A program made the translations under genes and the position numbers. The notes below the pieces were generated by a model that saw only the letters and a list, made by a program, of their open reading frames with translations, did no database searches and was not told the origin of the DNA. A stretch of DNA of 64,000 nt from positions 15,699,163 through 15,763,162 of the forward strand of contig CM060850.1 in assembly GCA_030737835.1 (NCBI GenBank), in the 5' to 3' direction. This DNA is from Acorus gramineus. Taxonomy: Eukaryota; Streptophyta; Magnoliopsida; Acorales; Acoraceae. Shown piece after piece: positions 2,476-37,300 of this stretch; position 1 is the stretch's first letter, and each line of letters begins with the position of its first letter.

Positions 2476-2651
2476 AGCACTCAAGGCTAAATGAGCCTAC
2501 GGGCCGGGCCTGTGAGCCCAAAAAAAATTTAAAAGAAAAATCTGAGGGAGGGGGAATCCCCTCCCTACAAGTGTTCTCCCATTTTTGAAGGGAGCATCTA
2601 TCTCCACCACCTTTATCCAAAAAAAATTTTGGACGGGGACAAATAATCCAG

Positions 2652-3466
2652 CTAGCCCTCCGTTGCAACTCCACCGGCCTCATCAAACGCCTCTGTGCCC
2701 TCACCCATGCCACCGCCTTCAAAAGGATGTCTTCCCAGCTTGAGAACTCCATCGACAACGTCTCCTGGCTCCTCTGTGTTAATCATGTCAATAGGACGGA
2801 TACGGATCGAATATGCACATATCCGTATCCGTATCTGAACTAGATATCCAAAAAAATATCCGTATCCGATATCAAACGGATATTGAAAGTAAGTATCCGT
2901 ATCCGATCCAAAAGTTCGGATTCGGTTACGGATAATTATCCGAAATATCCAAAAATTCAAATTAAATATGAAATGATTAAAATATCCAAAGATCTAATAT
3001 CCAAAAATAAAAATCATATATCTAATATTTGAAATATTTAAAAAAATATAATAATTACTTAGTATAAAACATAAAATTATAAGTATATACATAAAACATT
3101 ACATGCTTTAAAGTAAAAATAAAAATAAAAAACTTTTACTAATTCTAAAAATATAAATCTACAATTAAATAAATAATAATATAACAATATTTTAGGATAC
3201 GGGTATTTTCCGTATCCGATTCAAAAGTTTTCAGATATGGATAATTTTTTTGAATACGGATACGGATTTTTTGGATATCGGTTATTTTTTGGATTTTCAG
3301 ATACGGCTTCGGATCATAGACATATATTTTTTTGGATAATTGACAATACTCCGTGTCTCTACCGCGTTTGACAATGATGACGGCCTCCTCCCCCCCCCCC
3401 CCATTGCTGCCAACGAGCCCATCATCTGTTTGATATGGGAACCCATTGCCACCCTCCATTGTCCCC
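2652..3466 (+). pseudogene. ARMADILLO REPEAT ONLY (ARO)-like gene fragment, split by a transposon
   Basis: Two short stretches read as consecutive parts of the N-terminal region of plant ARO-type armadillo proteins. The left part (about 2664-2779) contains KRMSSQLENSIDNVSWLL. The right part (3349-3466) contains LRVSTAFDNDD and then IAANEPIICLIWEPIA. From memory of the family, Arabidopsis ARO1 has MSSQLENSIGDVSWLLRVS followed by PPIAANEPILCLIWEQIA. Between them sits a 569-bp hAT-like element. A 13-base C run (3390-3402) at the Leu-Pro-Pro codons breaks the frame. Only about 75 codons of a protein of more than 650 aa are present, with no intact ends, so this is a dead copied fragment. Confidence 0.75.
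2780..3348. mobile_element. hAT-like non-autonomous element in the ARO fragment
   Basis: Left end TAATCATGTCAATAGG; the right end reads TATTGTCAATTATCC on the complement. It is flanked by an 8-bp target duplication, CTCTGTGT (2772-2779) and CTCCGTGT (3349-3356), with one mismatch. Eight-base duplications and a TGTCAA motif about six bases inside the end fit the hAT class. The subterminal regions are made of degenerate ATCCGTATCCG repeats in inverted orientation. The AT-rich core, with words such as 'ataaaacataaaattataa', is shared with the element that forms ABCB intron 4 at 16655-16984. Confidence 0.75.
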
Positions 3467-4294
3467 TCCATCCTCCGCCCCCTCATGCCACTACACCTCG
3501 CGCCGCCTCCGCCCTCCTGAGCCACCGCCTCCCATTTCTCCTCTATCTCTCATCCCTTTCTCTCTTTCATCCTATTCTGATTTAATCCTTATCCCACCAC
3601 CCAAAATTTTTTCGGGCCAGCCCAACCAAGAAACAGGCCTGACTAGGTTTTGGTCTTACGGGCTTGGGTTGGGTGGTCTGTGTTTTCGAGCTTCGGACCA
3701 AATGGTGACTCTTAGTTTGACTCATTGTGTTGAGACCTGGAAAAATAACAGGTTCTATCTCATTTATAGCTGACATGCATTTTGATTTTTTCCTTAAAGT
3801 ATATATTTGTCTAATGAAAGCATATACGTAGTTAATTAAGTATATTTTTATAATATATCCGAATGTTAGTTAATGTTAGTGATATGATAATTGCGAATGG
3901 AACTGTAAAACAGATTAAGTGTATTAAGGCCCTCTAGAAAGTTTTAAAGGGCTTTTGTTTTTGTAGAAATTAAAAAGCGCAGACGTATTTTCAAACAGTT
4001 TCGAAAAACCACATTTAATGGAAAAGTTTGTTTTCAGCTTTTAATACAAAAATATGCTTTTAAAAAAACAAAGAAAGCGAGCTTTTTGAAATCAGGTTTC
4101 TTTAAACTACTTAAAAACTTTCCAAACGGGTCCCAAACGACACTAATAAATGTTAAATATTCACCTAATATACCTCATTGAATCCTAGGCCTTAGCTAAA
4201 AAAAATGAATTTATAGAAATATATGATTTTAATTCACATTTTTTTAACCAATTCTTTTAGATAGATAAATATTATTCTTAATTAATGACATGAT

Positions 4295-12197: not shown

Positions 12198-15100
12198 ATG
12201 GAGGTGGTGAAGGAGAGCAAGAAAAAACCAACTTCACCATCGACACTCACCTCACTAGGATCAATTTTCATGCATGCAGACTCCACCGACATGTGGTTGA
12301 TGGCCTTCGGTTTCACCGGCGCCGTCGTCGACGGTCTTGGCATCCCCCTCATGCTCATCGTCACTAGCAAGATCATGAACAACCTCGGTGGCGCCGCTAC
12401 CTCCGACAACACTTCCCTCTTCACTCAGAATCTCAAAAAGGTCTGCTTTTTTTTAAAAAGGAAAGTTAGATATTACTACCATGATTTCACTTATTGTAAT
12501 TCTGAACAGAACTCAATCAACTTGTTATATTTGGCGTGCGCGTCCTGGGTCTCGTCCTTCCTAGAGGGCTACTGCTGGACGAGGACTGGCGAGCGACAGG
12601 CCTCGCGCATGCGCGCGAGGTACTTAAAAGCGGTCATAAGACAGGACATCAGCTACTTCGACATGCGCGTCACCTCCACAAATGAAGTCATCGACGGCGT
12701 CTCGACTGACAGCCTCGCCGTCCAAGACGTCCTCACAGAGAAGGTCCCCCACTTCGTCATGAACGCCTCCACCTTCTTCGGCGCGCACGCCGTCGCGTTC
12801 TTCCTCTCATGGCGGCTCGCGCTCGTGGCGCTCCCGTTCTTGGTGGTGCTCATCATCCCCGGTCTGATGTACGGGCGGATCCTGATGGGGCTCGCGCGGA
12901 GGATCAGAGAGGAGTACGGTAAGGCTGGGGTGGTGGCGGAGAGGGCGGTGTCGTCGATTCGGACAGTTTACGCCTTCGTCGGGGAGGGCGGGACGATGCG
13001 GGAGTTCTCGCGCGCGTTGGAGGGGTCGGTGAAGCTCGGGCTCAAGCAGGGGCTCGTGAAGGGCGTCGCTATAGGCAGCAATGGCATCACTTTCGCGATT
13101 TGGTCTTTCATGTGCTGGTACGGGAGCCGCCTCGTCATGAACCACGGCGGGGATGGCGGGACCGTCTTTGCCGTCGGCGCTTCCATCATCGGTGGCGGCT
13201 TGTGCGTATCCACCCAATTTTTTAAACTAGTCATCACCACCTCTGTTTTAAACTTTTTTATTCAGATTTTTATAATTGGTGAACAGAGCGTTGGGGGCGG
13301 GGTTATCGAACGTGAAGTACTTCTCGGAGGCGGCGGCAGCAGCAGAGCGGGTGATGGAGGTGATAGAGAGGGTCCCCAACATCGACTCAGACGATATGGG
13401 AGGGGAGGTGCTGGGAGAGGTGTCGGGCGAGGTGGAATTCAGGTCGGTTGGGTTCGCGTACCCGTCTCGACCGGACGCGTTAGTGTTTGGGGACTTCAAT
13501 TTCAAAGTCCCGGCGGGGCGGACCGTAGCGTTGGTCGGGGGAAGCGGGTCCGGGAAATCTACGGCGATCGCGCTGCTTGAGCGGTTCTATGATCCATTAA
13601 AAGGGGAGATATTGCTGGATGGGGTGGACATAAAGCGGCTTCAGCTGAAGTGGTTGAGGTCCCAAATTGGGCTAGTGAGTCAGGAGCCGGCATTGTTCGC
13701 GACCACCATTAAAAATAACATAATGTTTGGCAGAGAAGACGCAACCATGGACGAAGTAGTAGCCGCTGCCAAAGCCGCCAACATCCACGCCTTCGTGTCC
13801 CAGCTCCCGGAAGCCTACGACACCGAGGTCGGCGAGTGCGGGGTGAAGATGTCGGGCGGGCAGAAGCAGCGCATCGCGATCGCGCGCGCCGTCGTGAAGC
13901 GTCCGAAGCTGCTCCTCCTCGACGAGGCTACGAGCGCGCTCGACGCGGAGTCCGAGCGCGTCGTGCAGGACGCGCTGGATGCCGCATCCGTCGGGCGGAC
14001 CACCATCGTCGTCGCGCACAGGCTCTCCACCGTCCGCGGGGCCGACGCGATCGCGGTGTTGCAGTCCGGCCGCGTTGCGGAGTGCGGGACCCATGACGAG
14101 CTCGTGCGAGGCGACCGCGACGGGGTCTACGCGGCGCTCGTGCGCCTTCAGCGCGTCGACGAGGTCCCGTCGCTCGCTACCACTGCCGCGTCGCACGACA
14201 GCTCCGAAAACTCGTCGTTCCGCTCATCGGCGTGTAACGATGAATGCGAGGCATCACCGGAAGAGCTAGCAGTGCCAAAGTTCAGGAGGCTTTTGATGAT
14301 GAACCGGCCCGAGTGGAGGGAGGGAGCGATAGGGTGCGCGTGCGCGTTGGTTTTCGGGGCGATACAGCCGTTGTACGCGTACGCGTTGGGGGGGATGATC
14401 GCGGTGTATTTTATAGAGGACCATGAAGAGATGAAGAGGAAGACGAGGACGTACTGTTTGGTGTTCGTCGGGCTCGCTTTGCTTTCGATGGGGGTGAACG
14501 TTGGACAGCATTATAGCTTCGCCGCCATGGGAGAGAGGCTCACGAGGAGGGTGAGAGAGAGAATGCTTTCGAACATATTGATGTTTGAGGTCGGGTGGTT
14601 TGATCAGGATGACAATTCGACGGGGGCTGTCTGCTCCCGCCTCGTCAAGGATGCTAATGTGGTAAGTATTTTTTTTTATGCTCTTGGTGATACTAGTAGT
14701 GGTATTTCCATTTCTTGGGAAGTTGAGAACAAATGTAGGATTCCAAAGTAATTTGGTTATGAGAAAACTTAATTAGAAAACACACTTAGGTTGTGTCTGG
14801 ATGTGCGGTAGACATGCTGGGATTCTTAAAACTGGCATTTTAAACTTAACTTTTGAATAACGTTTGTTTTGTTAATTTTTCGATCACTGGGTTTTTAGTC
14901 TAAAAAAACAAAATGAGGGATTGAAAAGCCAATTGGTGAAATATGTTAAGATTCGTAAAGCCTGCCTAAACACATATTTGAACATGGCTTTATTTGCCGT
15001 GTATATAATATTATTTTTCAATTGATATTGAAGGTTTGATTCAATTTAATTAGTGAATAAAATGGAAAATAAGAATATTAAATTTTAAGTGATTATTAAT

Positions 15101-17933
15101 TTATACGAAGGTGGTTTCTGTTTGTTATTTTTTATATGATCCAAGTTGATAGATTTTGGAGTCCTTTTTCAAATTAAGTTCTCCTTTCCGAAGTATGTTT
15201 AGCAGGTTTTTATATATTATTTTTGATAGGATTAGCTATGAAAGTTATGATAATAGCTTTGTGAGTAACTGAGCCCCACAAATTCTTTAATAATTCATGA
15301 TAGCAAATCAGTTTTCTAATGCCATTATTTAATGAGATTCACAGTTTCAAACATTGACATCTGCTTATAGCAAGTGAAAATGGATGACCCACCATCTGGA
15401 CTTCTAACATCTACCTTGAAGTCTGAATAAATAAAAAATTATATATATATATATATATATATAATCTTGGGAGAGTCATTAAAGGCTTGGGAGACGTGAC
15501 AAATCCTCGTCTTTATAGATCCCAAAAACAGGTAGAGATACACTTGGTATGTGGAGTTCAGTGCGCATTGGGAAAGACATGCCTGCGCATGCTCGTACTG
15601 CCTTTGTCTACCACTTCACTTTCCCTCCTGTATCATCTCCTTCAATTAACATCCTTTTTAGGTCCACCATGTTCAATAACGTGCATTTTGTTTTCTTAAA
15701 AAAGCTAAACCCAATCTCTCAATACAGTACTCAAATCATTTCAGTACTCATAACATGGGCATGCTTGTTACAATTTTAATTTATAAACTAGAATTTATAG
15801 AATTTTAGATTTTAATTTTTCAGATAAACAATTGACTTTTTTGTTGTGTTAAAAAAGGAAAAATAAACAGCAATTGATGCTTGTTAGAATAAATTGTAGA
15901 ACAGTTTTTTGTTATGTAATTATTAAAAATATTCAATTTAAACTATAGGAGATGAAGAGTTTGAAATAAGATAAAAAGACATTTGTCATTAGTAAAAAAT
16001 TCAAAAACATTAATGTCCAGAATAAAAATTACGTTATAATCTCTAGATCATTTTCACCCAATGTTCATATTCTTACTTTTTAAAAAAAAAATTTATCTTA
16101 AATAAATTATAATAAATTTACTTTAAATAAATTATAATAAATTTAAAAAATATGCAACAACAACTTAATTTAATGTAAAAGTTATAATCTCCAGTTTTGA
16201 CAAGATAGGCTGTCCCTTACATTGTAGGTGCGATCCTTGGTGGGGGACCGGATGGCGCTGGTGGTGCAGACGTTGTCGGCGGTGGTGATCGCGTGCGCGA
16301 TGGGTCTGGCGCTGGCGTGGAGACTCGCGGTGGTCATGGTGGCGGTGCAGCCACTGATCATCCTTTGCTTCTACTCGCGGCGCGTGCTCCTGAAGGCGAT
16401 GTCCGCCAAGGCCATGAAGTCCCAATCCGAGAGCAGCAAAATCGCAGCCGAGGCCGTCTCCAACCTCCGCACCGTCACCGCCTTCTCAGCTCAGGACCGC
16501 ATCCTCCGCCTCTTCGACGAGGCCCAACAAGCCCCCAAACGCGAGTCCGCGCGCCAGTCATGGTTCGCCGGTCTCGGCCTCGGCACCACCCAGAGCCTCA
16601 TGTCATGCTCATGGGCCCTCGACTTCTGGTACGGCGGCCGCCTAGTCTCTCAGGTAAATCTGTCAACAAAGGGAATACGGATTGGATAATTATATGAAAT
16701 ATTCAAAAAGTAAATATAATATATCTGATATATAAAATATGTAAAAAATTTAATAATTATTTAAAATAAAACATAAAATTATAAAAATTATAAGAAATTT
16801 TAAAGTGTAATGAATAAAAAAAAAATTTCATACTAATTTTAAATATATAAATATATTGATAAATAATAATATAAAAAAATTTCAAATATTTTCGATACTG
16901 ATTTTCTGATATCCAATAATTTTTTAAATTTTCATATATGGATTGGGAATTTCTTTTTTTTTTTCTGGATAATTGACACACTCTCTCTCAGGGCCATATC
17001 ACCGCCAAGGCCCTGTTCCAAACGTTCATGATACTGGTCAGCACCGGCCGAGTTATCGCTGACGCGGGGAGCATGACTTCCGACCTCGCCAAGGGCGCCG
17101 ATGCCGTCGCGTCGGTGTTCGCGGTGCTCGACAGGGTCACGCGCGTCGACCCGGACGACCCGGACGGTCTCCGCGTTGATCGGCTCGATGGGCGCGTGGA
17201 ATTCCGCGACGTGCACTTCGCGTACCCCGCGCGCCCCGACGTCGCGATCTTACGAGGTTTGAATCTGTCGGCGGAGGCGGGAAAGTCGACCGCGCTGGTC
17301 GGGCGGAGCGGGTCGGGGAAATCCACGGTGATCGCGCTGATCGAGCGTTTCTACGACCCAGTGAAGGGGGTGGTGAGGATCGACGGGCGGGACGTGCGGT
17401 CGTATCACCTCCGCACACTGAGGAGGCGCATCGCACTCGTCGGGCAGGAGCCCCCGCTGTTCGCAGGGACAGTGAGGGAGAACATCGCATACGGGTGCGG
17501 GGGGGAGGCGAGCGAGGCGGAGGTCATGGAGGCCGCGCGCGCAGCTAACGCGCACGAGTTCGTGGCGTGTTTGAGAGAGGGGTACGAGACGCGGTGTGGG
17601 GAGAGGGGAGCGCAGCTTTCAGGGGGGCAGAAGCAAAGGATTGCGATCGCGAGGGCGATACTGAAGGATCCGGCAATACTGCTTTTGGACGAAGCAACGA
17701 GCGCGCTCGATGGACAGTCAGAGAGGCTCGTGCAGGAGGCGCTCGAGAGGGTGATGGTCGGGCGGACAAGCGTGGTCGTCGCACATAGGCTTAACACAAT
17801 ACAGAATTGTGATGCGATTGCGGTGCTCGACAAGGGGAGGGTCGTCGAGAAGGGGACGCATGCATCGCTGCTTGCGAAGGGGCAATCCAGGGTGTACTTT
17901 TCACTTGTCAGACTTCAACAATCTGATCACTGA
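12198..17933 (+). CDS. ABCB full-size ABC transporter (MDR/P-glycoprotein type), 5 exons
   Basis: Exons: 12198-12440, 12510-13201, 13287-14661, 16228-16653 and 16992-17933; the phases agree and give 1225 aa, a normal length. The protein is an export ATPase with two membrane domains and two nucleotide-binding domains, expected in the plasma membrane. Domain 1 has Walker [10 protein letters not shown] (396-404), signature SGGQ (501-504), Walker B LLLLDE (520-525) and the H-loop His near 556. Domain 2 has GRSGSGKST (1016-1024), LSGGQ (1121-1125) and ILLLDE (1141-1146). The N-terminal SIFMHAD motif and '[14 protein letters not shown]' place it near AtABCB15; that clade's substrates are poorly defined, so none is assigned. 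Introns 1 and 2 are 69 and 85 bp; intron 1 has no stop and keeps frame, so reading through it adds 23 residues. Exons are strikingly GC- and CpG-rich. Intron 4 is a transposon. The gene converges on EDS1. Confidence 0.95.
14662..16227 (+). other. ABCB intron 3 (1566 bp)
   Basis: Donor GTAAGT follows the GTG codon and acceptor GTAG precedes GTGCGATCC. It holds a TTTGGA-family short element at about 14787-14995 and an AT microsatellite at about 15441-15463. Its AT-rich base composition contrasts sharply with the exons on both sides. Confidence 0.85.
16655..16984 (+). mobile_element. hAT-like MITE that constitutes ABCB intron 4
   Basis: The element is 330 bp and is flanked by a perfect 8-bp direct repeat, CTCTCAGG (16647-16654 and 16985-16992). 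TGTCAA lies exactly six bases inside each end (TAAATCTGTCAA on the left, AGAGTGTGTCAA on the complement of the right). The right-hand 'ggataattgaca' and the AT core match the element at 2780-3348. The spliced intron (16654-16991, 338 bp) equals the element plus one 8-bp duplication. The donor CAG|GTAAAT combines the last G of the left duplication with the T of the element; the acceptor CTCTCAG|G is the right duplication. Removal restores Val-Ser-Gln-Gly-His in frame. Confidence 0.88.
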
Positions 17934-24657: not shown

Positions 24658-27600
24658 ATGGTAAAGAAATCCGATGTCCCGTTAATGTACTCTTTTAACG
24701 GGAGGATTGTTCGAAGCGAAGGTAGTTCATTTTATGAAGGAGGTACCATGAAAACCACCATCATAAATAAGAAGATCTCTTATGTCGATTTACTCCAAAT
24801 GATGTACCATATGACGGAGACCGATCCAAGTCTTTACAAATTGTCCATGACTGCTGTGCATCCAACTCACGACGGAAAGTGTATGGGTGCCCCTCTCGAA
24901 GATGATATGGGGGTGAAAGTTATGATAATGATGTACCCAAAGCACGCGCATATCATTCAAATATGGTTAGAGAAGGAAGAGATCATACAAAGAGGCCGTG
25001 GCGCGATGAATTATGATCCAGAAGATTCATATCCTTCCATTGTTCGTGAACCATATCAACCTTCATCGTCGTCGTTTGTTCCGTGCACCCAAGAGAATAT
25101 GATTGAAGCAACACCGACCAATGCCTATGGAGTGTGAATATACCACATTTGTAAGTATTGTGAATTTATAGGATGTTTTTGGTGGGTGTATTCATATATG
25201 TAAGTATATTGTGTTTGCATTTATAGGTCCCCATTTCATGACATGGGTTGGGACGATATTCGTGAAGGAATTGAAGTGAACAATGAAGGAGAAGAAGATC
25301 AAGAAGGGGGAGAAGAAGAAGATCAAGATTGGGGAGAAGAAGAAGAGGATGATTATGAAGAAGGCTCCGAAGAAGAAGAAGAAGCAGAGGAACCTGATAG
25401 TGAGGAGGACCATGATGTGAGGAGAACTGCCATCAGTGAATATGGTGTTCCTCAAATGTTTCCTACACGTGAGCTTATGGAGCAGGCGGTGGCTGAAAAT
25501 GTCCATCCATGCATTTATGAAATCGGATCTTCTTCGTGTAATGAACTTGAGGTTGGTCAGCTTTTCGCGAATAAGAAGTCACTCATTAATGCTGTCCGAA
25601 CCTGGAGCATAAAGAAATGCGCACAATGTCATGTGGTGAAATCAAATGCAGAAAAATACGCCGTTAAGTGCATAAATGATGAATGTAATTGGAGATTATA
25701 TGCGAGGAGGGTCAGTGGTTCAGAAATGTTCAAGATTTCCACTCTGAGAGTTCCTCATACATGCTCCGATCCTCTTCTCAGTTCAAATCACAGACAATTT
25801 AGTTCTGATTATATCTCACAGCTGATTATGCCAACGATTCGTCATAATTTGAGAATCAGTGCTACTGAGATAATGGACAGGATACGTGCTGATCATCACT
25901 ACACAATTTCATACTCAAAAGCAAACCGTGCCAAATGGAAGGCTATGGAGAGGATATTTGGAAATTGGGAGGAATCATATGCTGAGTTGCCTCTATATGT
26001 TGATGCCTTGAGGAGGTCTAATCCAGGAACAACTGTGTTCTTCGAAGGCCCTGTCATACAAGAGAATAACATGGGCAGACCGATCCGACAGTTTGAACGT
26101 GTTTTTTGGGCATTCGGTCCAGCCTTAGAGGCTTTCAAACATTGTCGTCCATTGGTTTGCATCGATGGAACACATCTGTATGGAAAGTATAAAGGAACTC
26201 TCCTGATAGCCACTGCTTGCGATGCAGAAAATGGTTTGCTTCCGATAGCCTTTGCTATAGTTGAGTCTGAGAACAGAAGCAGTTGGACCTTCTTCCTTTG
26301 GAACTTGTACATTTCTGTTGGTGGTATAAACAATTTGTGTGTCATATCTGATCGGCACTTGGGCATCATAGCAGGCATGAAGGATATTGAGGAATCAAGC
26401 AATGTAACATGGCACCATCGTTTCTGTATGAGACACATGATAGACAACTTCAAAAAACATGTAAAATCAAAGGAGTTGAGTGACCAGGTGTGGAGGGCTG
26501 CCACCTTGAAATGTCCAAATCAATTTGCTGATGAAATGCGAAAGATTCTTACTGCCTCCTCACAAGCTCGCACATGGCTTGATCAAGTCCCTCCACAAAC
26601 ATGGGCCCTTTGTTATGACGATGGCCGTCGTCATGGCACGATGACCACCAATAGAGCTGAAAGCATGAACAGTGTCTTGAAAGGTGTAAGAGGGTTGCCA
26701 ATCACTGCCATATTACAACAAACATTCATACGAGTGTCAGAGTATTTTTATACAAGGCGTGAATCGGCCGAGAGCATGTCAGGTGAACATGTGCCATCTA
26801 TGCAGCAACATTTGGAGAGAACTGCACATGATGCAAGGGCGATGTTAGTAAGAAGGCTTGATAGATCAGAATTCAATGTCCAAGACAAGAATGCGGTTAT
26901 GTACATTGTTTTCCTATATCCTGACAATGCAGAATGTCAATGTCATGTTCCGAAGTTGTTTCACTATCCATGTGCACATGTCATAGCGGCCTGTGGGTAT
27001 GCTCGTATTAGTCCTGGGAGATATGTGTCACATTGGCTTTCCTCAGAGTCATATAGACACACTTATGAACCCCGATTCCACTCCGTTGATGATAAAAGTC
27101 GTTGGCCGATTCCTACGGAAAACGATCCCATCTTCATCCCACCAAATGTTAGGAGACAAGCGGGGCGCCCTGTATCAACTCGTCGACGTATGCATATGGA
27201 CTCCAGGGATCCAAGTCTGAGATATACATGTTCAATATGTCATGAGAAAGGCCATAGAAAAAATAAATGTCCACGTAGAATACAAATGCTGGTAATTGAT
27301 GTTAAATATGATTGTGATATGATTTTTTGTGTTCAATTGTTTGAGTAGATATTAACTTGTGTTCAAATTACAGGTGATGGACATCCGTGAGTGGCATGGA
27401 CCCGTCGTGGATGATTTGCTGTATTTTCAGGGATCTCATAGGTCTCATCATGGATTCCAGGGCAAGGTATGACAGATGCTGTGTTTTTCTCTAATGTTAT
27501 TCTTCATATATGATTTTTTTCTTACTTCAATATATAATTTCCTTAAACAGACCGACTCCTCCAAGTTTACTATCCACATGGTGGCATTGCGGCACTGGGT

Positions 27601-29609
27601 CATGGATCCACGCATCGAGCCATACGTGAGGGCATCAGGATTGTATTATTTGACAGAGATGGGGTATACCAGATCAGATCATCGACTTCTACAAGCACTG
27701 ACTGAGAGATGGAGACCAGAGACCAACACATTTCATCTGCGACAGGGCGAGATGACAATTACACTTCAGGACGTTGCTATTCTGACTGGACTACCCATTG
27801 ATGGCAAGCCCGTGACTGGTATCACAGACCACGATGATTGGGCCAGCGTCTGTGAGGAGCTGTTAGGTGTTGGCCCCCCTGCAGATAAGATCAAGGGTGG
27901 AAGAATTTTTCTGTCATGGCTTAAAGAAACCTTCAGCATCGTACCAGATGTTGAATTGGACGACGATATCCTTGGGCAGTATGCACGTGCATACATCTTA
28001 TTTGTGCTTGGATCAACAATCTTCGCCGATGGCACAGGAAATAAGATACATGCGTGCTACCTTCTTTATTCAGAGATTTTGAGGATGCTGGTCGATATTC
28101 ATGGGGTGCAGCTGCGTTGGCCCACTTATATAGAGCATTGTACAGAGGTAGTGTGCTTGGAGAGAGGATGTCGGCAGGATCTCATGGTTTTTATTCTTTG
28201 CTACAGGTAATATGCAAACCTCAATTTTCATCCATACATACTAAATTTGTTTTTTTTCTTGTGTTACTAAAGATTTTGTTCCAATGCAGCTATGGTCGTG
28301 GGAGAGATTACATGTGGGACGACCGTCATTGCATGATCCGGATTTTATTCTTGGAGATCGACCTTTGGGAGCAAGGTAATGTCAATATTTTCATCTTCTT
28401 TTGTCAATTCATAGAAGATCATATATCATTAAATTCGAAATTTCAGGTGGAATGTGACTCAGAGGTTTGATGAAAATTCGCGTGTTCTGATATACTATAG
28501 AGCACAACTGGACTATCAGCTTCAGTCGCAGGTGACTATACAATTAGCCATATATTTGACAAATGATATATTCTACGTTAATTGTCATACTAATTATATA
28601 TTTGGTTTTTGGTAGGTTATATGGCAGCCTTATGCTGGGACATATGAGACACTACCACCTGCATGTTTGGATCATATGGAGTTGTGGACGGCTAGGGTCC
28701 CACTCATTTGCTTTGATATTGTGGAGATGCACGTGCCGGATCGAGTCGCACGTCAATTTGGATGGCATCAGGACATTCCATCTGATGTAGAGGCCATCGA
28801 CCGGGTAAACCGACGAGGTAGACAGGATGTGAATTGGTGTGTTTTTCACGAGTCTTATATCGAGCGTTGGGACCAACGATTGGATCACATCCACCAATTT
28901 CCTGATACCCGGAGTTCGAGGAGATATATGGAGTGGTACTGGGAGAGAACAGTCAGACATATCACACCTCCACCACCCCCACAGTACCATCCAGGCTATG
29001 TCGCACCAAATTCGGTAAGAATTTTAAACGCGTGTTACATTTGTAGATAGTGATAAATGATTTTATAACAACTTATTATATTGAAACTTTTGTTAACAGG
29101 GGGGAGTTACACAGAACATCACCGAGGTGCTTGCAAGGGGGTTGGTCTTATACCCCAACTGCGGTGAGTGGGATCGTATAGTTGCGGTGGCACGGGACTA
29201 TGCAGATGCGATGATGGGAGACATGGGACAACCTTCGAGTACTCCCAGTGCATCTACAGATGCTGATGATTCTCAGGATGTGGTAGATGATAGTTTCGCT
29301 CACACGGAATTCACCATTGACGAGTTCTTCAATGATGTACGACTGGATGCAGAGATCGATGAGCAACCACAACAACCAGCCCCAGCTCCTGATCAGGCTC
29401 CACAGATGACACTCCAGACATATACTCGTGGACCACGCAGGGTTTGGTGTACTTCTTCTACTACTGCCAGTCGGGGATCGGGCGAACAATTTACCACTCC
29501 ACCACAATCAGGTGTGCCACCATCCACAGCAACTGACGTACCCTCTTCATCAGCACCTCCTGCTCCGAGAAAAGCCAAAAAGAAAGGACTTCTGAGAATA
29601 TTTGGATGA
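24658..29609 (+). CDS. MULE transposase fused to a plant mobile domain, 8 exons
   Basis: Proposed exons: 24658-25133, 25227-27291, 27374-27466, 27551-28206, 28290-28375, 28447-28531, 28616-29014 and 29100-29609, about 1456 aa. Order: N-terminal PB1-like part (1-159); acidic Glu-rich linker; MuDR-type DNA-binding region; DDE catalytic domain with Asp472 (CIDGTHLYGKYKG), Asp534 (VISDRHLGI) and Glu637 (NRAESMNSV); SWIM zinc finger C-x-C...C-x-H; CCHC knuckle (CSICHEKGH..NKC); then a plant mobile domain (FHLRQGEMTITLQDVAILTG, DAGRYSWGAAALAHLYRAL) and a basic KKKGLL tail. The intron after 25133 is phase 2 and its donor overlaps a stop at 25135-25137; if retained, a 159-aa protein results. The fourth exon is 656 nt where 657 would keep frame: the frame slips by one base near 28050-28062, so the PMD part may be broken here or the base miscalled. 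Confidence 0.85.
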
Positions 29610-33849: not shown

Positions 33850-34390
33850 AATTGAAAGGTAGTAGGCTAGTTGGATATGGGGAGAGGGCCAAGAGGCCTT
33901 CATTAAGGGGATCATTTATCCACATCCCCAACAATACTTTAGAAATGAGTAAAACATGGTTTGATAGATTTTTGGAAGTTTCAATTGGCGACGAGCACAC
34001 TTCTCTCATATTGATTCAATATGCTAATAACACCATTCTTCTTTGTGATGGAGGGGAAAACTTTCATACCTTGAAGTTCACCATGAAATGCTATGAGTGG
34101 TTTCCGTCCTTAAGGTAAAAATTGTTAAGAAAGGTTTCGTGATAATTAATATGTTTTAGTAGGTTTCCTTGCATATTTGGAGAATAGGTTGCCAAGAAAT
34201 AAACTTCTCAATCCTCTCCTTGAAGCTTGAAGAAAAATGTTCAGACATCGATATTCTAAAGATTTGACAGGAGACTAGAGACATGGAAAGGTAAATTATT
34301 GTGCTTGGGAGGTCACCCAGTCTTCATAAAGCGATTTTCTTAGGCCTCCCTCTATATTTCTTTTCAATAATTATGAAGTTTGATCCAAAG
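33850..34390 (+). mobile_element. LINE reverse-transcriptase remnant
   Basis: Frames on the plus strand contain HTSLILIQYANNTILLCDG, a decayed form of the L1-type 'ishl.fADDtllf..a' motif (the YADD catalytic motif reads YANN). Further on come [15 protein letters not shown] and [14 protein letters not shown], the plant LINE 'WkgklLSlGGrltLi.svL..lP.Yf.Sl.k.P' segment. It is spread over more than one frame with stops, so it is long dead. It ends near 34390 where Ty3/gypsy sequence begins. Confidence 0.75.
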
Positions 34391-34399
34391 ATAAAGAAA

Positions 34400-37300
34400 A
34401 ATGGGAGAGACCTTTTTTCACAGAAGGAGCTAAACTTTCGTCAGAGGCGATGGCTCGAGCTTTTGAAGGATTATGATTGCACCATTCAATACCATCCAGG
34501 GAAGGCGAACGTCGTTGCTGATGCCCTGAGTAGAAAGTCAGCAGTAAGTGTAGCGCATCTGATGGTTAGTGAGTGGTGTTTGCTCGAGGAAATTCGAGAC
34601 TCTGATGTGACATTGCAGATGGGAATGCCAGGAGTTTTGATTGCCCAGATGAGGGTACAACCGATCTTGTTAACCCAGATAGGAGAAGCTCAGAGGAGAG
34701 ATGTCGAGTTTGAGGAGTACCGCCGAGTATCTGAGTCTAAGACAGTGGTTTCAGAATGGAAGATGAGGACAGATGGATTACTCTACTTTCGAGGACGGAT
34801 TTGGGTTCCATCAGATGATGAGATCCGACGAGAGATCCTACAGGAGGCACACCATTCTGCATACACTATGCACCCTGGTAGCACAAAGATGTACCAGAAT
34901 CTGCGAGGAATGTACTGGTGGTGAGGTATGAAGAAGGATATTGTAGTGTTTGTTGGGAGATGTCTGACCTGTCAGAGGGTCAAGGCAAAGCACCGGAGAC
35001 CGGGAGGCTTGTTGCAGCCATTGGAGGTGCCGGAATGGAAGTGGGAGCATGTCACTATGGATTTCGTATGTGGATTACCTCGATCCCAGAAGGGGTGTGA
35101 TACCATTTGGGTTATCGTAGATAGGCTGACGAAATCAGCCCACTTTCTTGCCATTCGAGCTACGCAGTCGATGGATAGTCTGGCGGCTAAGTATATTGAT
35201 GAAGTTGTTCGATATCATGGGGTGCCTGTCAGTATCATATCGGACCGTGATCCGAGGTTTACATCTCATTTTTGGAAAGGTCTACAACAGGCTTTGGGGA
35301 CCAGATTGCAGTTTAGCACAGCATTTCACCCCCAGACTGATGGTCAATCTGAAAGGACCATCCAGACTCTCGAGGACATGTTGAGAGCATCAGTTCTTGA
35401 ATTCGAGAACAGATGGGAGAAGAACCTAGCATTGATGGAGTTTGCCTACAATAATAGCTACCATAGCAGCATCGGGATGGCACCGTTTGAGGTATTATAT
35501 GGTAGAAGGTGTAGGACTCCTATTTGTTGGGAGGAGGTTGGAGATCGACAGATGCTTGGACCGGAGATCGTGCAACGATCGACCGACGCAATTCGTGTCG
35601 TCAGAGATCGGCTTAAAACAGCTCAGAGTCGACAGAAAAGCTATGCCGATAACCGGAGGAGAGATTTGGAGTTTCAAGTTGGGGACCACGTTTTTCTGAA
35701 GATATCACCGACGAAAGGGGTGATGAGGTTTGGGAAGAAGGGCAAATTGAGCCCTAGATATACTGGTCCATTTGAGATCCTAGAGAGAATTGGTACGTTG
35801 GCATATCGGCTTGCTTTGCCGCCGCAATTGGAAGGTGTTCATAACGTGTTTCATGTGTCCATGTTGAGGAAGTATCATCCGGATCCGTCGCACATCATTG
35901 ATTATCAACCTTTAGAGGTTCGTGATGATTTGACGTTCGAGGTGCGACCCATCCGCATTGTAGCACGTCAAGAGAAGCAGTTGAGGACTAAGACCATTCC
36001 ATTGGTTAAGGTCCTATGGCAACATCAGACCTCCGAGGATGCAACATGGGAGCGTGAGGCGGAGATGAGGGAGCGTTATCCTCATCTATTTTCATCCTGA
36101 GGTATGCTTTGCGGATTTGGAGGACCAAATCCTATTTAAGGGGGGTAGGATGTAATAGCCCGGATCCTCTTATGCCGAATTATGCTAATATTTACGTGTT
36201 TGGATTGCAAAATAGGATAATTTTATGTTATTAAGCTTTTTGTCCTTATTATTATTGAAGCCTTGCATTTGGTTACATTTTCATAAAACACCTTCGAGGC
36301 ATAATTGGATTTTGCGCTAAACATAAGAAGTCTTCATTTTTGAGTTATCTCTCATATAAAATTGGTTTGGTGTCATTTGGAGCTGTATTAGAAAAGTTAT
36401 GGCTATTTTACCGTTTCTGCCCGTAGAAGAAGAAATCGCGAGGTCTTCTGTTCGTCGTTATTTTTAATATAGTTGGAGGCTTCTTTTGATCTTGGTCTAG
36501 ACATAGAAGTTATACATATTTTCGTTACCTTTCCAACAGAAGTTGAATCATTTGAAGTGGACTCTCCTACAACAAGATATAGCGGTTTGAGTCGAGGCTG
36601 CGCAGGTTATTAAGGAGGGGTACTTTGGTAATTTTAGCGGATTTATAAACTTCACTTACTTAGGTGAGTCGGTGGTGGTTATATATGTGAGAGAGGGAGA
36701 GTCGTCCGAGACTCATTTGAGGGAAAATAAAAAGGGGAAAAATTAGGAAAAATTAGGAAAAGCTTCGTGGAATATTTTTCGTGTCATACTGGGTAAGGAT
36801 TTTTATTCTTTTCATCGTTATTCTTCATCTAGGGTTGTTCTATTTTAGTTCTAAATTAAAAATTGTGATTTGGGACTGAAATATGAATTTGTTTTTGGGG
36901 CTGGATAAATAAGAATTGGAGAGTTATTTTTATTGCGTTAATTTAGGATTTGTATTTAGGACATCAGATTTGATTTGGGGGAAACTGAGAATTTCTTGAT
37001 TATTAGAATGAATTATATGATAGTATCTGATTGAGATTATATTTTTATCAGTGGATTTCCTCTCTGCCTGTTTTAAGAGTTGGAATAGGGTGAGTCCAGT
37101 TGAGGTGGTGAATTGCGAGGTAAGTAACCCGATCGATATTTGTTTGTCCTACATTCCATTCCACGTGGTATTATTATAAGTGACCCAATATTTGTGTTTG
37201 TTATTTCCAATTCCGCGCTTCATTGTTGTTTCTTATCATCTCTGATATTGTTGAGACCCGATCGGTTACTATACTATATTGTTGAGACCCATAATTATTC

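Follow-up and report, generated by a model that had tools for sequence, protein, structure and literature searches.

The ABCB gene and its fourth intron

The window analysed, a stretch of 64,000 nucleotides (64 kb) from Acorus gramineus, carries on its + strand the gene for a full ABCB transporter, which is made up of five exons (Table 1). With the predicted splicing, the joined exons form 1225 codons and a terminal stop without any internal stop, and Pfam assigns two stretches of the product to the ABC membrane domain and another two to the ABC ATPase domain. The best solved relatives of the part encoded by exons 4 and 5 are ABC transporter B family members 19 and 1 of Arabidopsis, and the name ABCB15-like, used for the gene in an earlier note on this DNA, is a plausible one. 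A search with an 80 aa query from the exon 4-5 region led to no confirmed relatives among 15 pattern stretches in viral contigs and 265 in prokaryotic genome contigs. The coding sequence, at 3678 bases, has a G+C content of 62% and includes 88 AGG and 17 CAGG sites. Intron 2 (13202-13286) has an unusual donor, CTT/GTGCGT (slashes mark splice junctions), in this frame-keeping gene model.

Intron 4 is in phase 0, follows codon 912 and has the lowest G+C content of the gene's four introns. The earlier note had described it as a 330-bp element plus an 8-bp duplication, and this was borne out, as the element and one copy of the perfect duplication CTCTCAGG cover the whole intron and no intron sequence is left over. 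Direct reading also upheld the proposal that the donor is formed by the last G of the left duplication and the first T of the element while the acceptor is the CAG of the right duplication, together with the claim that splicing out the element and one duplication copy keeps the frame, the removal of intron 4 being predicted to restore the pre-insertion reading frame exactly. Under the 330-bp delimitation, six bases separate TGTCAA from the left edge of the element and TTGACA from its right edge, and the TTGAC of the latter, 15 nt before the acceptor, is a possible match to a branch-point motif. Folding of the intron 4 RNA revealed nothing special (z +1.1).

Table 1. Features of the ABCB gene, intron 4 and the related element in the window
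Feature	Position	Strand	Remarks
Left target-site duplication of second copy	2772..2779	+	CTCTGTGT
Second, longer copy of the intron-element family	2780..3348	+	569 bp; TATCCG/CGGATA repeats
Right target-site duplication of second copy	3349..3356	+	CTCCGTGT; 7/8 identical to left
ABCB exon 1	12198..12440	+	gene model
ABCB exon 2	12510..13201	+	gene model
ABCB exon 3	13287..14661	+	gene model
ABCB exon 4	16228..16653	+	gene model
Left target-site duplication at intron 4	16647..16654	+	CTCTCAGG; first 7 bases close exon 4 (Ser-Gln), final G opens the intron
ABCB intron 4	16654..16991	+	GT-AG, phase 0, 338 bp, 16% G+C
Intron 4 donor GTAAAT	16654..16659	+	G from duplication, TAAAT from element; direct reading
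Intron element, non-autonomous	16655..16984	+	330 bp; ends TAAATCTGTCAAC...AATTGACACACTCT
TTGACA motif, right end of intron element	16973..16978	+	sequence
Right target-site duplication at intron 4	16985..16992	+	CTCTCAGG; gives end of pyrimidine tract, acceptor CAG and first base of exon 5
ABCB exon 5	16992..17933	+	codes for the remainder of the second membrane domain and for the second ATPase domain

A second copy in a former coding sequence

The core of the intron element had been said to match the element at 2780-3348, and this was confirmed using blastn, the two sharing 76% identity over 200 columns (E 5.7e-34) and, in a second block, 74% over 88 columns (E 2.3e-7). The local alignment score of 174 compares with a mean of 41.9 (sd 6.7, maximum 70) for 300 dinucleotide shuffles, and the same element scored no higher than 54 against 211 tiles of the window, from which tiles lying within 900 bp of either element were omitted. 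As judged from these alignments, the intron element is a shortened relative of the 569-bp copy. About one quarter of the aligned sites differ, and the second copy includes eight TATCCG and four CGGATA hexamers (12 in total) while the intron copy, which is the shorter, has none of either. The description of the intron as newly made was not supported, the copies being approximately 24-26% diverged in the parts that align and the intron copy lacking the 12 hexamers. Though the two duplication copies flanking the intron element are identical, they cannot be used to date the insertion because they are too short and are partly held in place by codons and by splicing.

The two elements differ at their right ends, where TTGACA is followed by CACTCT in the intron copy versus ATA in the second copy, making the intron copy 3 nt longer at this end and leaving some doubt over the right edge of the element. 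The difference would be accounted for by slippage in the CT tract or by a variant terminus. Hence, the statement that TGTCAA is found six bases in holds for both ends of the intron copy but not for the right end of the second copy, where TTGACA lies 3 bases from the end.

The second copy interrupts what was formerly coding sequence. When the element and one copy of its duplication are removed, an open frame runs through the empty site. Its translation has a Pfam DUF7792 match (E 5.3e-12) at residues 3-47, of which residues 44-46 are encoded by the duplication, and this open frame provides independent support for the duplication assigned to the second copy. The coding fragment, at 2643-3560, is a partial DUF7792 (profile positions 75-119 of 120) split by the 569-bp copy; DUF7792 is the N-terminal part of armadillo-repeat-only proteins. 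As there is no AG in the duplication of the second copy (CTCTGTGT/CTCCGTGT), that insertion could have taken no acceptor from its own duplication. The second copy is thus a natural contrast to the one in intron 4, and the fragment hosting it may have been dead beforehand.

The repeat flanking intron 4

The in-register direct repeat across the junctions of intron 4 is 9 bp long, TCTCTCAGG. It overlaps a CT tract as well as the splice consensus, which is CAG/G at donor and acceptor alike, and any intron with this consensus would share four of the 8-9 bases. Because of this overlap and of the CT run before the acceptor, the repeat taken by itself carries less weight than its appearance suggests. 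One alternative is that an ancient intron lay at this codon, that the element was inserted into it later and the original sequence was lost, and that the flanking repeat is simply a chance similarity, as the splice consensus alone would account for CAG/G on both sides and a CT run stands at the acceptor. However, no remnant of an older intron was found on either side of the element, and the gene's three upstream introns have in-register repeats of 2, 0 and 3 bp, as against 9 bp here. Sixteen further CAGG sites occur in the ABCB coding sequence, and their match to the intron 4 acceptor is 6 bp at most. The probability of TCTCT preceding CAGG is approximately 5e-4 at the coding base composition.

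All 17 TGTCAA...TTGACA pairs separated by 60-2500 bp in the window were scanned for duplications, with 63 end offsets for each pair, using a motif that was derived from the two elements themselves. Duplications of 8 bp with no more than one mismatch were found only at the intron 4 and 2780-3348 loci (2 of the 17 pairs). Random pairs passed the same scan in 4.35% (2000 pairs) or 3.7% (20,000 pairs) of cases, so that approximately 0.6-0.7 loci would be expected by chance among 17, and the scan on its own is moderate support for real duplications. A perfect 8-bp match at any offset occurred in 0.32% of 20,000 random pairs, and this fell to 0.055% of 20,000 when the left offset was fixed at 6 and any of nine right offsets was allowed. 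The left end that is predicted from the second copy, with TAA first and TGTCAA six bases in, is the exact edge of the left duplication in intron 4. A candidate third copy of the family near 52.4 kb (GGATAATTGACA) was dropped because no partner end with a duplication was found for it.

Intron positions in related genes

The structures published for homologous genes bear directly on whether an older intron could have been present at this codon. In ABCB1 from 80 angiosperms the number of introns ranges from one to nine, and the intron positions of ABCB19 are those of ABCB1 except for intron 8 (Parvathaneni et al. 2017, PMC5716013). In the available text of that study, ABCB1 is given no intron where intron 4 lies and, by virtue of the shared positions, the same applies to ABCB19. 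Two of its last-exon primers translate to QFLLYASY and FMVLMV and flank the codon homologous to the intron 4 site, and hence the last exon of ABCB1 spans this position. As far as they can be compared, the published ABCB1 and ABCB19 structures agree with the absence of an intron here, the ABCB15 clade being outside that study. Intron 3 of the Acorus gene, which is in phase 0 and located just before VRS, would correspond to ABCB1/ABCB19 intron 9 by position and phase, and intron 9 is given as phase 0 for Arabidopsis and soybean in the accessible part of PMC4245006.

There are, nevertheless, introns beyond this point in some relatives, and these are in favour of the ancient intron. Beyond intron 9, Arabidopsis ABCB2 and ABCB10 have three more (introns 10-12), while Amborella ABCB19 has a single extra one that its authors consider a possible gain; in both cases the main description in PMC5716013 leaves the positions to its supplement. 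Carnation ABCB genes are described, in the account available, as having 5 to 12 exons. Plant introns are also described in the available literature as having been lost more than gained, so that an apparent gain can represent many losses. Weighing these points against the structures of ABCB1 and ABCB19 and the properties of the flanking repeat, we consider it unlikely that intron 4 is an ancient intron later occupied by the element.

Assignment of the element to a family

The earlier note called the element hAT-like. The 8-bp duplication and the layout are in accord with this, but neither a transposase nor a classical hAT terminus was found for the intron-element family in the 64-kb window. The duplications are of the hAT-type length at two loci, with 8/8 bases matching at intron 4, where 9 bp also fits, and 7/8 at 2780-3348. 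Clustered subterminal repeats, another hAT trait, may be represented by the hexamers of the second copy, which are missing from the intron copy. As regards the short terminal inverted repeats and first bases typical of hAT elements, TGTCAA lies near both ends and the first bases are TA, but the terminal bases are asymmetric. Membership of the hAT group is therefore plausible, based on duplication length and layout, and the element would presumably have been moved by a hAT transposase. A Mutator-like origin was considered in view of the 9-bp repeat at intron 4 but is disfavoured, as the second copy gives 8 bp, with the ninth base differing at both sides of its duplication, and as no long terminal inverted repeat was found among the 25 longest of the 95 pairs listed.

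Other candidate mobile elements were seen in the window. A hAT-looking element at 1334-1851 has the ends TAGGGGTGCAACTC and AGTTGCACCCCCAA, is rich in CGGGTT-type repeats and is flanked by an 8-bp duplication, TGTTATTG/TGTTTTTG, with 7/8 bases matching. Its AT-rich core is weakly similar to the intron family, with scores that were reached by 5/300 and 4/300 shuffles. Judged from its translation, a long open frame within 25204-28210 resembles a MuDR/FAR1-type transposase, and after it, at 27473-28210, comes a frame resembling a plant mobile domain. The frames at 34295-36100 are presumably, again from the translations, those of a gypsy-type retrotransposon polyprotein and integrase.

Origin of intron 4

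The anatomy is best read as the earlier note proposed, with the intron created by an element that duplicated 8 bp on insertion, and the second copy was likewise inserted in former coding DNA with a duplication matching at 7/8 bases. We infer that, probably, a hAT-like non-autonomous transposon was inserted in a single ancestral ABCB exon and was intronised at once. Insertion would have occurred between the Ser-Gln and Gly-His codons, with 8 bp (CTCTCAGG) duplicated. The duplication, ending in CAGG, and the leading TAA of the element would together have created the donor CAG/GTAAAT, and the second copy of CTCTCAGG, with the CT bases before it, would have supplied the acceptor CAG/G. The spliceosome would then remove the element and one duplication copy, leaving an mRNA the same as that of the empty site, and close orthologues would be expected to have no intron here. 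For an insertion to be ready for splicing in this way, its duplication would need to end in AGG. From the AGG and CAGG counts of the coding sequence (88 and 17), approximately 0.5-2.4% of random exonic insertions in the same orientation would be splice-ready.

These figures are also relevant to the possibility that the insertion is recent and is not spliced, or is poorly spliced, and so disrupts the gene in the sequenced individual, as a null or weak allele. If intron 4 were retained, translation would meet a stop codon at nt 34-36 of the intron (16687-16689), and the identity of the duplication copies would be in keeping with a recent event. However, joining at this donor and acceptor gives back the exact frame, which few coding positions would permit, and the coding sequence downstream is intact. 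The donor also matches the plant consensus at 8/9 positions, the best fit among the gene's four introns. The divergence of the intron copy and its lack of hexamer repeats likewise argue against a recent event, though the copy could still be young if it came from a diverged subfamily. That a splice-ready insertion lies in a gene with no other damage is easier to reconcile with survival through splicing than with a fresh disruptive insertion, and the latter we regard as very unlikely.

A different route to the intron, namely tandem duplication of a piece of exon bearing AGGT or filler introduced during break repair, with the element captured by chance, was also considered. Tandem duplication has been documented in plants for the potato RdRp gene (PMC4974935, as far as its available text goes), and both tandem duplication and break repair are included in the accessible table of a 2012 review. 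As the insert is not an exon copy but a relative of the element at 2780-3348 with similar ends, and as the flanking repeat, at 8-9 bp, is like the 8 bp of the second copy, such an origin is extremely improbable. Intronisation of an inserted transposon thus remains the preferred reading, and the resulting intron may be fixed in the species.

Comparison with known systems

Insertions of the maize hAT element Ds are reportedly spliced as introns, and Giroux et al. are said to have described a de novo intron of this kind in 1994. The splice sites in those cases are reportedly near the edge of the element, as in intron 4. Intron 4 is also like the Ds insertions in that a small non-autonomous hAT (or hAT-like) element with an 8-bp duplication was inserted in an exon of a plant gene, but differs in that the coding sequence of its host is intact and the Ac/Ds ends are absent from the element. 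The Ds cases, moreover, are said to be mutant alleles from genetic stocks. A transposon-similar intron was reportedly also found in rice catalase by Iwamoto et al. in 1998.

Other plant introns with transposon-like sequence have been recorded. In rice segmental duplicates, two of five gained introns were transposon-like, 430 of the 741 bp of one of them matching Rim2 and the other matching a copia-type protein (Lin et al. 2006, PMC1779517, from the text available). Intron 4 resembles these in being a plant intron with transposon-like sequence, whereas the end-to-end fit of an element and its duplication seen here is not stated for the rice cases in that text. In the accessible part of the 2012 review, 35 events of intron creation by transposon insertion are counted in Oryza, Drosophila, Oikopleura and Zea.

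A further parallel is with introners. For those with duplications and inverted repeats, the splice sites come wholly or partly from the duplication, and mRNA length is unchanged in most introner families; none was recorded in land plants in the 2022 survey, according to its available text (Gozashti et al. 2022, PMC9860276). Intron 4 would likewise be a DNA-transposon insertion with splice sites drawn partly from the duplication and, as predicted, no change in mRNA length. However, introners form families of similar introns in each genome while a single such intron was found here, in 64 kb. No earlier report of intron 4 or of its element family was found in the open-licence literature. The mechanism is already known from maize Ds and the algal introners, but fixed introns made by transposons are hardly documented in land plants.

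Only two copies of the family were detected in the 64-kb window, and one of them is the intron. It is decidedly unlikely, but conceivable, that the family is a land-plant introner family, in which the leading TAA and the right end would turn any exonic insertion with a duplication ending in AGG into an intron. If this were true, the genome would hold a series of introns equal in length to an element plus 8 bp, and they would be the first introners in land plants. The origin of new spliceosomal introns is an old open question. With both copies of the duplication present, a host gene whose coding sequence is intact and a contrasting second copy, the mechanism is directly testable at this locus, and intron 4 offers a clean plant case as well as a way into what may be a family of intron-making elements.
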